A stretch of 37,089 nucleotides of DNA from Paracoccaceae bacterium (lineage in GTDB: Bacteria > Pseudomonadota > Alphaproteobacteria > Rhodobacterales > Rhodobacteraceae): assembly GCA_018223085.1 (NCBI GenBank), contig JAAEZB010000027.1:1-37089 (forward strand), in the 5' to 3' direction. The first letter of the stretch is position 1. Each line of letters begins with the position of its first letter. Below, piece after piece: positions 12,756 through 18,163 of this stretch. The notes under the pieces are model-generated. The model was not told the DNA's origin, searched no databases, and was given only the letters and a program-made list of their open reading frames with translations. A program made the position numbers and the translations under genes.

Positions 12756-13969
12756 TGGACGGCTCCAAAGGTTTCGAAGACGCCCTTTCGGGCGAGCAGA
12801 AAATCCGCAATTTCAACCTCAACTTCGGCCCGCAACACCCTGCGGCACACGGGGTTTTGCGGCTTGTGCTTGAGCTTGACGGTGAGATCGTAGAGCGCTG
12901 CGACCCGCATATCGGGTTGCTGCATCGCGGGACGGAAAAGCTCATGGAGAGCCGGACTTACCTGCAAAACCTGCCTTATTTTGACCGCCTCGATTACGTG
13001 GCGCCGATGAACCAGGAGCATTCCTGGTGTCTGGTGATTGAAAAGCTTGCCGGGATCGAGGTTCCGCGTCGCGGGCAGCTCCTGCGTGTGTTGTTCTCGG
13101 AGATTGGCCGTGTCCTGAGCCACCTTCTCAACATCACCACACAGGCGATGGACGTGGGCGCGCTCACGCCGCCGCTCTGGGGTTTTGAGGAGCGTGAAAA
13201 GCTCATGGTGTTCTATGAGCGGGCTTGTGGCGCGCGGATGCACGCCAACTATTTCCGTCCGGGCGGCGTTCATCAGGACGTGCCGGAGAAGCTTCTTGAT
13301 GATATCGAAGAGTGGGCCATCGAGTTCCCGTCGATGATCGACGATATTGATGGGCTTCTGACCGAAAACCGTGTGTTCAAACAGCGCAATGTCGATATTG
13401 GCGTGGTGGATCGCGAGTCGGTCGAGGCCTATGGCATGACCGGTGTGATGGCGCGCTCGGCGGGGCTTGCATGGGATTTGCGCCGTGCGCAGCCCTATGA
13501 ATGCTATGACGAGTTCGAATTCCAGATCCCGGTTGGCAAGAACGGCGACTGCTATGACCGTTACCTGATGCGTATGGAAGAGATGCGCCAGTCGACGAGC
13601 ATCATCCGTCAGGCCATCGTCAAGCTTCGCGAGGCGACGGGGGATGTTCTGGCGCGCGGGAAATATACTCCGCCGAAGCGTCAGGAAATGAAGACCTCGA
13701 TGGAAAGCCTGATCCATCACTTCAAGCTTTATACCGAAGGGTTCCATGTGCCCGAGGGCGAGGTTTACTGCGCCGTGGAAGCGCCCAAGGGCGAATTCGG
13801 CGTTTACCTTGTCGCCGATGGCACCAACAAACCCTACCGCGCCAAGATCAGCTGTGCCGGCTATCGCCATTTGCAGGCGATGGATTTCATCGCCACCGGG
13901 CATCAGCTCGCCGATGTGGCCGCGATCATCGGCACGATGGACATCGTTTTTGGAGATATTGACCGCTAA
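12755..13969 (+). CDS. nuoD: NADH-quinone oxidoreductase subunit D (49-kDa)
   Basis: This 404-residue subunit forms the quinone cavity with NuoB. It begins with a short acidic stretch and then [18 protein letters not shown], whose HPAAHG loop contacts quinone. [14 protein letters not shown] and [13 protein letters not shown] follow, and the protein ends in the invariant VFGDIDR. The frame is open from 12701 within nuoC, but the ATG at 12755 shares a base with the nuoC stop and matches the normal start. It is not fused to nuoC, as usual in this order. Confidence 0.95.
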
Positions 13970-15120
13970 TGCTTCGCCGTCTTCATACCGAACAGCCCGA
14001 GAGCTTTGCTTTTACGCCCGCCAATCAGGCTTGGGCGGAGGCACAGATCACCAAATACCCCGAAGGCCGTCAGGCCAGCGCCGTGATCCCGCTTTTGTGG
14101 CGGGCGCAGGAGCAGGAAGGCTGGGTCACGAAACCAGCCATCGAGGCCATCGCAGACATGCTTGGCATGGCTTATATCCGTGTGCTTGAGGTCGCGTCTT
14201 TCTACTTCATGTTCCAGCTTCAGCCGGTTGGCTCGGTCGCGCATATTCAGATTTGCGGCACCCTGTCCTGCATGATCTGTGGTGCGGAAGATCTCATGGA
14301 GGTCTGCAAAGATAAGATCGCACCGACGCCGCATACGCTTTCGGCGGATGGCAAGTTCTCGTGGGAAGAGGTGGAATGCCTCGGGGCCTGCACGAACGCG
14401 CCGATGGCGCAGATCGGCAAGGATTACTACGAAGACATGACGGCAGAGGGCTTTGCCCAGCTTCTTGACGATCTGGCGGCGGGCAAGGTGCCCGCGCCGG
14501 GGCCGATGAACGGGCGGTTTTCGTCCGAGCCGCTCTCGGGTCTTTCGAGCCTCAAGGAATATGACTCTGGCCATACGAAATACAACGCCTCGGCGCAGCT
14601 TGCGACGGATATTGGCGATACGGTGAAACGTATCGACGGCACCGAGGTTCCGCTCACGACACCGTGGGTTGGCAAAGATGGCACGGTTGCAGGGCGTTCG
14701 CCCGGCAAGGCGCAGCCGCCCAAAGCCCCCGAGACGCCGAAACCGGCAGCCAAGCAGGCAGAAGAGGCCAAGAAGGCCGCGCCGAAAAAGGCCAAACCTG
14801 CTGCGAAGCCCGCACCTGTGGCGGCAGAGGTCGAGGAAACGGCCCCTGAAACGCTTGGCGCGGCGCGCGAAGGCGGGGCAGATGACCTCAAGAAGATCAA
14901 GGGCGTGGGGCCGAAGCTTGAGCAGACGCTCAACGAGCTTGGGTTCTATCACTATGACCAGATCGCGAAATGGACCGGGGCGGAGAGTGCCTGGGTTGAT
15001 AACCGTTTGAAATTCAAAGGCCGGATCGAACGTGACGGCTGGATTGAGCAAGCAAAAACCCTTGCGGAAGGTGGTGAGACTGCCTTTTCCAAGAAAGTCG
15101 ACAAGGGTGGTGTATACTAA
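13969..15120 (+). CDS. nuoE: NADH-quinone oxidoreductase subunit E with C-terminal helix-hairpin-helix extension
   Basis: Residues 1 to about 170 are the ordinary thioredoxin-like subunit carrying [2Fe-2S] cluster N1a. The ligands are Cys96 and Cys101 (CGTLSC) and Cys137 and Cys141 (CLGAC). At 383 residues the protein is about twice the usual length. Residues ~170-304 form a low-complexity linker rich in Ala, Lys, Pro and Glu. Residues 305-383 form a helix-hairpin-helix domain starting [14 protein letters not shown]. That domain matches the C-terminus of the next protein at 46 of 79 positions by hand alignment without gaps. Such modules usually bind DNA or proteins; the role here is unknown. 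The ATG overlaps the nuoD stop by one base. Confidence 0.93.
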
Positions 15121-15163
15121 GAAGACCAAAGGAAAATAGGACTGCTCAACAGGGGATAGAACC

Positions 15164-15778
15164 ATGACACAAACCACCAATTCGACATGCAGAAATGTTT
15201 GCTGGATCCTTGGGATCATCGGCGGCGTAATCGCGTTTTTGCTGCTTAAAGGCGCAATGGCGATGCTATTGGCGCTTATTCTGGCCGTGGTTGTGGCGCT
15301 CTGTCTGGGCTTTCTCCTAGTGAAAATCTTCTGCACCAAGGATGAAGCGGCGTCTGCCGTGCCGCCGACAGCGACGCAGGCTGCGCCTATGGCGAAGATC
15401 AAGCCCGCGCCGGTGCCGCGTGAACCCGAGACGGCAGAGCCGGAAGCGGCCCCTGAGCCGGAAGTCGAGGCCGCGCCCGAGCCGGTTTCGGAGCCTGTAG
15501 CGGTTGCCGCACCGATCGCGGATGTGCCGACGGCGCCGGATGACCTCAAGAAGCTCAAGGGTGTGGGGCCGAAGATCGAAGAAAAGCTGCATGCGGCCGG
15601 AGTCACGACCTTTGCGCAGATCGCGGCATGGGGCGCGGAAGACATCGCCAAGATGGATGATCTCCTTGCCTTCAAGGGACGGATTGACCGGGATGGCTGG
15701 GTCGCGCAGGCCAAGACGCTTGCGGCAGGTGGCCTGACAGAATTTGCCAAGCGCGTCGACGACGGCGACGTGTATTGA
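15164..15778 (+). CDS. Membrane-anchored helix-hairpin-helix protein in the nuo operon
   Basis: This 204-residue protein has two closely spaced hydrophobic segments at about residues 9-50 (ILGIIGGVIAFLLL and LLALILAVVVALCLGFLL). An acidic Pro/Glu/Ala linker occupies ~60-125. The C-terminal 79 residues (15539-15775) form a helix-hairpin-helix domain, DDLKKLKGVGPKIE through FKGRIDRDGWVAQAKTLAAGG, ending DVY. That domain is a paralogue of the NuoE tail encoded just upstream. Topology would place it on the cytoplasmic side if both segments cross the membrane, next to the hydrophilic arm of complex I. AGGGGA lies seven bases before the ATG. I know of no defined function. Confidence 0.85.
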   Translation: MTQTTNSTCRNVCWILGIIGGVIAFLLLKGAMAMLLALILAVVVALCLGFLLVKIFCTKDEAASAVPPTATQAAPMAKIKPAPVPREPETAEPEAAPEPEVEAAPEPVSEPVAVAAPIADVPTAPDDLKKLKGVGPKIEEKLHAAGVTTFAQIAAWGAEDIAKMDDLLAFKGRIDRDGWVAQAKTLAAGGLTEFAKRVDDGDVY

Positions 15779-15792
15779 GGACGGACAGAAGG

Positions 15793-16020
15793 ATGGCGGA
15801 CCTCGAACGGAACAGTGATCAGGCGCGCAGGGGGCGGATCGTCGCCATTGTGATTGCGGCTACGGCGCTGTTCTGGATCGCCGCCACCTTTATCGGGGCC
15901 GAGATGGGGCTAAGCCAGCGTATGCGGGCCCTGTTCGACCTGATGGCGCTGGGGGGCTTCGTGCTCGCGCTGGCGATGATTTATCAGATCTGGCGCAAGC
16001 GCCAGGACAACGAAGGGTAA
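15793..16020 (+). CDS. Small two-helix membrane protein, DUF5337-like
   Basis: This 75-residue protein has a charged N-terminus ([15 protein letters not shown]), two predicted membrane helices ([21 protein letters not shown] and [21 protein letters not shown]) and a basic tail RKRQDNEG. It resembles the DUF5337 proteins found in the nuo cluster of Rhodobacterales, though that name is from memory. The frame extends upstream to a TTG at 15775, but the ATG at 15793 is the likelier start. It ends four bases before nuoF. It could be a small accessory or assembly subunit; no catalytic motif is present. Confidence 0.65.
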
Positions 16021-16024
16021 CGGG

Positions 16025-17323
16025 ATGCTCAAGGACCAGGATCGGATCTTTACCAATCTCTACGGCATGCATGAGCGCACGCTCGCAGGCGCGAAACAGC
16101 GCGGCCATTGGGATGGCACGGCGAAGATCATCCAGAACGGGCGCGATTGGATCATCGACCAGATGAAGGCCAGTGGTCTGCGCGGACGTGGCGGGGCGGG
16201 CTTCCCCACGGGGCTCAAATGGTCCTTCATGCCGAAGGAAAGCGACGGGCGTCCGGCGTATCTTGTCATCAATGCCGATGAATCCGAGCCGGGCACCTGT
16301 AAGGACCGCGAGATCATGCGCCATGATCCGCATACGCTCATCGAAGGGGCGTTGATCGCGTCTTTCGCGATGAATGCGCATACCTGCTATATCTATATCC
16401 GCGGTGAATATATCCGCGAGCGCGAGGCGCTTCAGGCCGCGATTGACGAGGCTTATGACGCGGGTCTTCTTGGTCGCAATGCGGCCGGGTCGGGATGGGA
16501 TTTTGATCTGTTCCTGCATCATGGGGCAGGGGCGTATATCTGTGGTGAGGAAACCGCGCTTCTTGAGAGCCTTGAAGGCAAGAAGGGCATGCCGCGCATG
16601 AAGCCGCCGTTCCCGGCGGGGGCGGGGCTTTATGGTTGTCCGACCACGGTCAACAACGTGGAGTCGATTGCCGTTGTGCCGACGATCCTGCGCCGGGGGC
16701 CGGAATGGTTCGCGGGTTTTGGCCGCGCCAACAACGCGGGCACCAAGCTTTTCGCGATCTCGGGGCATGTGAACAACCCCTGCGTCGTCGAAGAGGCGAT
16801 GTCGATTTCCTTCGAAGAGCTTATCGAGAAACATTGCGGTGGTATTCGCGGCGGTTGGGATAACCTTCTCGCGGTCATTCCGGGCGGGTCTTCGGTGCCT
16901 TGTGTGCGCGGCGAGAACATGCGCGATGCGATCATGGATTTCGATTACCTGCGCGGCGAGCTTGGGTCCGGCCTTGGTACGGCAGCAGTGATCGTGATGG
17001 ACAATTCCACCGACATCATCAAAGCGATTTGGCGGCTGTCGAAATTCTACAAGCACGAAAGCTGTGGTCAGTGCACGCCGTGCCGTGAGGGCACCGGCTG
17101 GATGATGCGAGTCATGGATCGTCTTGTGAAAGGCGAGGCCGAGATCGAAGAAATCGACATGCTCTGGGATGTGACCAAGCAGGTCGAGGGGCACACGATC
17201 TGTGCACTTGGCGATGCGGCCGCCTGGCCGATCCAGGGTCTCATCCGCAATTTCCGTGAGGAGATCGAGGACCGCATCAAGGCCAACAAGAGCGGCCGTA
17301 TGGGCGCGATGGCGGCGGAGTAA
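16025..17323 (+). CDS. nuoF: NADH-quinone oxidoreductase subunit F (NADH/FMN site, N3 cluster)
   Basis: This 432-residue subunit oxidises NADH and passes electrons through FMN to cluster N3. [13 protein letters not shown] (54-66) is the NADH/FMN-binding glycine-rich loop. [19 protein letters not shown] is the FMN site. N3 ligands are Cys347, Cys350 and Cys353 ([11 protein letters not shown]) and Cys393 (HTICALGD). The start ATG follows the DUF5337-like gene by four bases. All key residues are present and the length is normal. Confidence 0.96.
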
Positions 17324-17339
17324 GGATTTGGGGATCGTG

Positions 17340-17723
17340 ATGACCGACATGAGTAAACAGAATCTGCGTCGCCGGGTCCGGAACGGGCTTATGCTGGTCT
17401 GCGTTGCGGCCTTTGCGATGGGCTGTGCCACTGCGCGCGACAAGATGAGCAACAAGGAAAAGATCACCTTTGACGGGCACTATTTCATCACCAAGATAGA
17501 TCGTCCCGAGCGCAAGGTGCGCGATCATTTCATGGTTTATGTGCGCAACCCGCATCAATCGCTCAAGGCGGCGCGCGAGGCCGGGCGTTACGAGGCGGTG
17601 AAATACTGCATCAAGGAATACGGCACGTCGCAGATCGACTGGATTCGGGGGCCGGATGTCGAGGATGCGGGGCTTGCCTTTGATAATGAGCGTCTGGTGC
17701 TTGAGGGGACATGCAAACCGTGA
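17340..17723 (+). CDS. Small predicted lipoprotein of unknown function in the nuo operon
   Basis: The 127-residue product starts with a basic segment (QNLRRRVRNG), a hydrophobic core (LMLVCVAAFAMG) and Cys29, the pattern of a type II signal peptide, although the -3 position is Ala and -2 Met instead of the best lipobox residues. The mature part is polar, with FDGHYFITKIDRPERKVRDHFMVYV and single Cys residues in KYCIKEYG and EGTCKP. I do not recognise a family. The frame is open back into nuoF, but the ATG at 17340, with GGGG six bases upstream, is the sensible start. It overlaps the following exported protein gene by 13 bases. Confidence 0.65.
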   Translation: MTDMSKQNLRRRVRNGLMLVCVAAFAMGCATARDKMSNKEKITFDGHYFITKIDRPERKVRDHFMVYVRNPHQSLKAAREAGRYEAVKYCIKEYGTSQIDWIRGPDVEDAGLAFDNERLVLEGTCKP

Positions 17724-18163
17724 TCGGAGCGCGCGTTATATCCTTTGGGGCAACCCGGGCGGCGCTTGTAGCGGCGGTGATGGGGGCGTGTCTTGCGGCA
17801 CCGGCCTCCTCGGCGGCGGCGCGTCCGCATCTGCGTGAGGCGACAGAGATCAATGACGGTCTCTTTGCTGTGGCGATTGCGCGCGAGATCAAGGATTACT
17901 GCCCTGAGATCACGGCGCGCTATTTCCGGGCGTTCAACTACCTGTCGTCGCTCAAGCGTAAGGCGCGCGATATGGGGTACTCGACTGCCGAGATCGACGC
18001 CTATGTCGAGAATGACGAAGAAAAAGCCCGCATGCGGGCGCGCGGCGAGGCCTATCTCGCGGCGAAAGGGGTCTCGTACGATGACCCGCAGAGCTTTTGC
18101 ACGCTGGGGCGTGAAGAAATCGAAAAATCAAGCCGGATCGGCGTGTTGCTGAGAGCGAAATAA
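17711..18163 (+). CDS. Exported DUF5333-like protein in the nuo operon
   Basis: This 150-residue protein has an N-terminal signal sequence (hydrophobic [20 protein letters not shown], likely cleaved near residue 36). The small helical mature domain has two cysteines, in [17 protein letters not shown] and [11 protein letters not shown], that could form a disulphide in the periplasm. From memory it fits the Rhodobacterales DUF5333 family; no activity is known. The start is uncertain: the ATG at 17711 is very close to GAGGGG (17703-17708), and a GTG at 17720 is also possible. It is squeezed between the lipoprotein gene and nuoG, only two bases before the latter. Confidence 0.7.

Follow-up and report, generated by a model that had tools for sequence, protein, structure and literature searches.

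The closest described relative of the membrane protein analysed here is protein-O of Dinoroseobacter shibae, which a 2025 paper identified by mass spectrometry and described as a subunit of RC-LH1. According to the accessible text of that report, cryo-EM shows it as a helix-turn-helix inserted between reaction centre and LH1 ring and cross-linked at its cytoplasmic face by a Cys10-Cys59 disulfide; its C-terminal part is invisible in the map. Its authors likened the C-terminus to that of NuoE, located the gene between nuoE and nuoF, and termed the function unknown (PMC12079452). The protein is represented in PDB entries 8YY9, 8YZ2 and 9JPB; another D. shibae entry, 9LTS, matches protein-O residues 7-87 as ‘Protein LRC’ in a gapped alignment. 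PDB 9WQV, entitled as the LH1-RC of Rhodovulum sulfidophilum, contains a chain a (‘NADH:ubiquinone oxidoreductase 41 kd complex I subunit’) homologous to residues 11-225 of D. shibae protein-O; the deposited sequence of this chain, likewise from a phototroph, stops after the RDDWVAQARALA segment, and the final tail is missing. A two-helix hairpin at a similar site between reaction centre and LH1 is known in Rhodobacter sphaeroides as protein-U, protein-Y or PufY, but its primary sequence is described as ‘quite distinct’ from protein-O, and an HhH (helix-hairpin-helix) tail is not mentioned for it in the accessible text (PMC12079452).

The C-terminal module of protein-O is shared with four NCBIfam families whose anchor proteins differ, namely PRK12373 (long NuoE), PRK12278 (ribosomal protein L21), PRK12311 (S2) and PhasinPhaH. 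Among titles and the opening lines of abstracts, no literature specific to the HhH tails of phasins or L21 was found.

The window (the whole stretch of 37,089 nucleotides that was analysed) contains a nuo operon in which a membrane ORF of this type follows nuoE (Table 1). Residues 1-236 of NuoE match chain E of Paracoccus denitrificans complex I (8qby_E) with 390 bits in a PDB sequence search, and the long-NuoE model PRK12373 spans residues 1-380. Two domains of unknown function lie within the operon, DUF5337 (15775-16020) and DUF5333 (17711-18160). A two-helix ORF of about 70-80 residues, perhaps DUF5337, recurs before nuoF in many loci of the family. As a relative of protein-U or of other PDB hairpins, DUF5337 gave no convincing match (best E 0.53).

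Table 1 Features of the nuoE-nuoF interval in the window
Feature	Position	Strand	Remarks
nuoE	13969..15120	+	383 aa; PF01257, 7.9e-52; NCBIfam PRK12373, 604.5 bits
NuoE [2Fe-2S] thioredoxin-like core			residues 24-169; followed by linker and C-terminal (HhH)2 module
NuoE Ala/Lys/Pro linker	14659..14880	+	residues 231-304; net charge +4
NuoE (HhH)2 module	14881..15117	+	residues 305-383; 46/79 identical to the protein-O copy
protein-O homologue	15164..15778	+	204 aa; membrane hairpin, linker and (HhH)2
protein-O membrane helix-turn-helix hairpin	15176..15343	+	residues 5-60; Cys9 and Cys57
protein-O linker	15344..15538	+	residues 61-125; block pLDDT 47-66 over residues 61-120
protein-O (HhH)2 module	15539..15775	+	residues 126-204; AlphaFold2 pLDDT 93, pTM 0.82
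DUF5337 two-helix membrane ORF, between protein-O and nuoF	15775..16020	+	PF17272, 5.5e-28
nuoF	16025..17323	+	432 aa; ORF, next complex I gene; name presumed from established knowledge of the family and operon

The membrane ORF belongs to the protein-O family, and all hallmarks of the latter were found in the window: a homologous hairpin, the Cys pair, a C-terminal HhH module and a position between nuoE and nuoF. In a phmmer search of the PDB, the 204-residue protein matched 8yy9_O (‘Reaction center protein O chain’) at 6.7e-29 and 9wqv_a at 1.5e-20. For the hairpin, sequence search alone against 8yy9_O is weak (E 0.27). An HMM built from the hairpins of 41 phototrophs, with the HhH part cut off, matched the first 90 residues of the window protein at 5.7e-14 and recovered 48 of 50 non-phototroph hairpins. 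Reciprocally, an HMM from 47 non-phototrophs (window excluded) recovered 40 of 41 phototroph proteins, that of D. shibae at 5.3e-12. Each of the 107 ORFs matched by either HMM is located after the end of nuoE and before nuoF homology begins. AlphaFold2 predicts helices at residues 5-28 and 34-60, in accordance with the two hydrophobic segments reported earlier for this ORF, with block pLDDT of 88-97 over residues 11-60; its confidence is low for the linker and high for the HhH domain. With this model, Foldseek retrieved 9lts_A and 8yy9_O at probability 1.00 and E 0.7-0.8; the hairpin superposes on 8yy9_O with 1.4 Å over 46 columns (E 0.78), such high E-values being expected of a short hairpin. 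Cys9 and Cys57 align with Cys10 and Cys59 of the D. shibae protein. Compared with the latter, the window protein shares hairpin, linker, HhH module, Cys pair and gene position, but has a shorter linker, an L21-like HhH core and a host without a PufL/PufM match. The preliminary description had put the locus forward as a candidate for an undescribed system, which is right only in part, since its D. shibae homologue has been in print since 2025.

The likeness between NuoE and the membrane ORF, from which that description started, was confirmed by alignment. NuoE 305-383 and membrane-ORF 126-204 align without gaps at the positions originally given, with 46 identical and 58 similar residues of 79 (E = 2e-29 in a single pairwise comparison), and both end in VDxGxVY; one HhH module on complex I and another on a membrane anchor are thus supported. 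Pfam HHH_5 scores the membrane protein above the cut-off (1.5e-6) and the NuoE copy below it. In the window genome, the module was found with strong E-values at three places, with two more matches at E 0.36 and 0.65. Ribosomal protein L21 of the same genome ends in it too, in agreement with the L21 fusion mentioned in the preliminary description. The NuoE/membrane-ORF pair is therefore neither due to chance, given the strong alignment, nor exclusive, since the module occurs three times in the genome.

To place the locus, we drew 150 genomes from the window's family, each from a different genus and the window's own among them; all are at least 90% complete except the window's (89%). NuoE was found in 147 of them, the other three giving no match; one further genome could not be scored because of a contig end, so that the nuoE-nuoF interval was scored in 146 genomes (141 + 5). 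In one genome a contig end splits the protein-O gene, leaving its HhH part on the following contig. PF00124 (PufL/PufM) was detected in 56 of the 150 genomes. It was absent from the window genome (89% complete), from a genome of the same genus (100% complete) and from P. denitrificans; a type-2 reaction centre, expected of the host of an RC-LH1 subunit, was thus not found in the window's host by the PF00124 search.

The protein-O family is not tied to photosynthesis, as HhH-bearing protein-O occurs in 43 of 55 genera with PF00124 and in 51 of 91 without. One could read protein-O as purely an assembly subunit of the photosystem and its non-phototroph copies as relics of lost photosynthesis. The structures indeed come from two phototroph species, phototrophy changes often in the family (34 changes on the tree), and the raw counts among 141 genomes favour phototrophs (43/54 vs 51/87; Fisher, p = 0.011). 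On independent pairs taken from a tree of the NuoE core and NuoF of 138 genomes, however, the median p for phototrophy and protein-O is 0.375. The frames are open in the 51 non-phototroph genera, and the hairpin is as alike among the 48 non-phototrophs (identity 0.259) as among the 41 phototrophs (0.267). Nor does protein-O depend on cytochrome-type (PufC) reaction centres, an association that we tried and rejected (18/23 vs 24/31; 19/24 vs 24/31 with genomes G053 and G049 added). The gene moreover lies in the nuo operon and not in a photosynthesis cluster, both in the window and, by the accessible text of its report, in D. shibae (PMC12079452). Together with the Cys pair described below, these data make the relic reading quite improbable.

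Among 101 aligned hairpins (three rows being omitted, one non-homologous and two with overlong starts), both cysteines are present in 63, neither in 36 and only one in two, counts that are inflated by relatedness. The 58 hairpins from genomes without PF00124 show the same both-or-none pattern, with a complete pair in 40, no cysteine in 16 and just two half pairs. Judging by this pattern, the disulfide known from D. shibae probably forms in non-phototrophs as well. Among phototrophs with protein-O, the pair occurs in 15 of 18 with PufC and in 8 of 24 without (kinship uncorrected, G053 excluded).

The preliminary description had further suggested that the two cognate HhH modules could dimerise and thereby anchor complex I to the membrane through its NADH module. 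The genes are adjacent, the modules 58% identical, and both tails are present in 84 of the 146 genomes, with a raw association of p = 0.028 (Fisher, 141 genomes). In the remainder, the NuoE tail is accompanied by a hairpin without HhH in 10 genomes and stands alone in 26; protein-O alone occurs in 10, the hairpin alone in two, and neither tail nor hairpin in 14. Exactly one HhH tail of the two is thus found in 46 of the 146 genomes, which argues against docking. The same description had held that one partner commonly occurring without the other in a family survey would speak against its proposal, and this was borne out in part: 36 of 120 NuoE tails lack an HhH-bearing protein-O, and 10 of 94 HhH-bearing protein-O lack a NuoE tail. 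The tree gave no sign of coupled gain or loss of the two tails (4.9 pairs changing the same way and 3.8 in opposite ways, of 14; median p of 1), a comparison of low power that, with so few informative pairs, amounts to absence of evidence for coupling and not to proof of independence. In raw counts of the 141 genomes the NuoE tail is rarer in phototrophs (Fisher, p = 0.015; median p of 0.22 on tree pairs). Of 27 class-level nuoE loci, one has an HhH module on NuoE, and none has an HhH-bearing ORF between nuoE and nuoF. In five other loci, which we take to be of Stappiaceae type, the NuoE tail is present and nuoF follows directly.

The linkers give no better support to docking. A basic linker in NuoE and an acidic one in the membrane protein had been noted at the outset, and the window bears this out, the net charge of protein-O residues 58-125 being -8. 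It does not hold as a rule: among the 81 genomes that were initially assigned both tails, on which the linker, charge and module-identity counts are based, the combination occurs in 18, and the charges of the two linkers correlate positively (rho 0.52). On these two results we rejected complementary linkers as a general feature.

Paracoccus denitrificans is instructive in this respect. In strain DSM 413, a 239-residue NuoE without a tail is followed by a 214-residue HhH-bearing protein-O and by nuoF; all 239 residues of this NuoE are identical to those of chain E in the solved complex I structure (8qby). A search of the genome with the window protein at E 0.001 returned one match, protein-O itself, so that a second module of the protein-O/NuoE type is absent at this threshold. 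Against the PDB at E 0.1, Paracoccus protein-O matched 8yy9_O and 9wqv_a only. The accessible text on the solved P. denitrificans complex I lists NDUFS4, NDUFS6, NDUFA12 and the methyltransferase PIMT as extra subunits and does not name protein-O or a subunit like it (PMC11522691). It is possible that protein-O was lost from the complex during purification. An anchor whose own module is the only one of this type found in the genome speaks against a cognate pair, and docking of the NuoE and protein-O tails to each other is poorly supported; we regard it as very unlikely.

The module itself is well conserved. AlphaFold2 predicts six helices of at least four residues; the first hairpin, KGVGPK, is canonical and the second (FKGRIDRD) is degenerate. 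Across 84 sequences there are ten invariant columns and a mean column identity of 68%, as against 30% for the whole protein-O alignment. This degree of conservation argues against the notion of a tail under low constraint that recombines freely and serves no dedicated function. That notion would account for the frequent changes of both tails on the tree (19 for the NuoE tail and 31 for protein-O) and for the partial intermixing of the copies, the window protein-O module being nearest to L21, and yet we consider it very unlikely.

At module positions 5, 8, 13, 47, 49, 52, 60 and 73, lysine or arginine accounts for 88-100% of the non-gap residues in the 84 sequences, and these positions include both hairpins. 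A phosphate backbone, RNA or DNA, would be a likely type of ligand on account of these conserved basic residues. On average, the module has a small negative net charge (-1.9 for NuoE and -1.3 for protein-O modules), which is unusual for a nucleic-acid binder. Foldseek neighbours include the N-terminal HhH of RadA, a DNA-binding recombinase, NusA AR2 and Y-family polymerases, none of them below 1e-3; the HhH-type fold is common to the RadA and NusA AR2 domains and the window module, and sequence similarity to NusA is marginal (E 0.03). The NusA AR2 neighbour, 6ib8, was solved in complex with the protein SuhB, so that on structural grounds a protein ligand would suit the module equally well. On a more far-reaching reading, already raised in part in the preliminary description, RNA or the nucleoid is what the HhH tails bind, respiratory or photosynthetic complexes and ribosomes being held near mRNA or DNA, in the manner of co-translational membrane insertion. 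In its favour, L21, S2, phasin PhaH, NuoE and membrane anchors all carry the module, both hairpins have conserved basic residues, and RadA and Y-polymerase HhH are among the fold neighbours; the negative net charge and the weakness of the fold matches count against it. We deem this reading rather unlikely.

Comparison of the modules across the 81 genomes gave nearly equal identities for NuoE with protein-O (0.655), NuoE with NuoE (0.661) and protein-O with protein-O (0.667), own-genome pairs reaching 0.693. The NuoE module found its best match in its own protein-O in eight of the 81 genomes; it is slightly closer to its own protein-O than to that of the nearest relative (46 higher, 28 lower, 7 ties; p = 0.002), which is a point in favour of docking. 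On a module tree, poorly resolved with 66 columns and two starred branches, the labels NuoE and protein-O change 46 times, and 100 shuffles give 60-76 changes; since this is fewer than in any shuffle, the two kinds of module keep some separate history. Two cleanly separate old lineages are not supported by the identities or by the module tree. The window protein-O module has its highest identity with an L21 copy (75% over 63 columns). In D. shibae, the protein-O module is closest to its own NuoE module (85%), and the first listed match of that NuoE module is the NuoE of another genome, also at 85%. All seven L21 copies in the comparison lack the final TEFxxRVDxGxVY tail, unlike the nuo-type modules. 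At 15539-15775 in the window, the HhH core is L21-like and the last residues are of the nuo type, as if exchanged between cassettes. On the whole, these similarities would fit either exchange of cassettes or one shared ligand, 66 columns resolving little.

Other proteins with HhH tails were seen in the course of the survey. In 10 of 141 family loci (e.g., L241:5595-6572, L281:4450-5460 and L216:4398-5084), the interval from protein-O to nuoF contains an additional ORF with an HhH tail and, in most cases, no predicted membrane helix, and some nuo operons thus contain three HhH tails in a row. Three HhH ORFs after protein-O were tested as candidates for phasin PhaH; they match its NCBIfam model in linker and tail only, far under the cut-off, and the identification was rejected. 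Membrane-anchored HhH-tailed proteins were found in several bacterial groups at seven loci, among them L285:3692-4303 and L266:3752-4378, and no nuoE or nuoF was found alongside them; two of the contigs with such proteins are labelled as Campylobacterota and Sulfurovum MAGs and are perhaps misbinned. In D. shibae, a second motif, PSxxLxGxxELAxRKGxWxY (noted at L092 51-2005 and L287:1426-2427), is shared by the NuoE linker and the protein-O linker and also begins a protein resembling an ABC-transporter ATPase by eye. A search of the 141 loci with a strict pattern found it in eight NuoE; 26 genomes have it in other HhH ORFs, and seven ORFs without HhH carry it close to their end. In this search the window genome had no match.

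Considering all of the above, we favour, with somewhat better than even confidence, the interpretation of protein-O as a membrane adaptor whose hairpin docks in larger complexes and whose HhH tail is an exchangeable element for a common ligand. The hairpin, with both ends cytoplasmic and closed by the Cys pair, would dock into a lipid-facing groove of the larger complex. In phototrophs this host complex is RC-LH1, as shown by cryo-EM in D. shibae and indicated by the PDB entry for R. sulfidophilum; in non-phototrophs it would have to be another partner, or complex I held only loosely. The long, presumably disordered linker would hold the (HhH)2 domain out into the cytoplasm. Tails of the same kind, on linkers of their own, are present in NuoE, L21 and several other proteins, and they may represent interchangeable cassettes for a common ligand, perhaps a phosphate backbone, and not a lock-and-key pair binding each other. 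A wider form of this adaptor model, in which the NuoE tail, protein-O and the L21/S2 cassettes bind one nucleic-acid (or other) scaffold and constitute a single tethering system, seems improbable to us. If true, scaffold-bound cassettes would gather energy complexes and ribosomes in one membrane zone, which in phototrophs would bring complex I close to RC-LH1 and so allow quinone exchange or reverse electron flow.

Protein-O of D. shibae and its resemblance to NuoE are already in print (PMC12079452). New here are the broad distribution among non-phototrophs, the both-or-none pattern of their Cys pair, the absence of a detected coupling with the NuoE tail and the exchangeable tail; in the accessible parts of the open-access literature, including PMC8115037, PMC12654162 and PMC9932092, no survey of protein-O in non-phototrophs was found. 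A subunit reported as new in a photosystem is thus a common gene of the complex I operon in bacteria without reaction-centre genes. Paracoccus denitrificans, a genetically tractable model for complex I, carries protein-O, and its role without a photosystem is therefore directly testable. The finding also points to a family of cytoplasmic tails common to respiratory, photosynthetic and ribosomal proteins.
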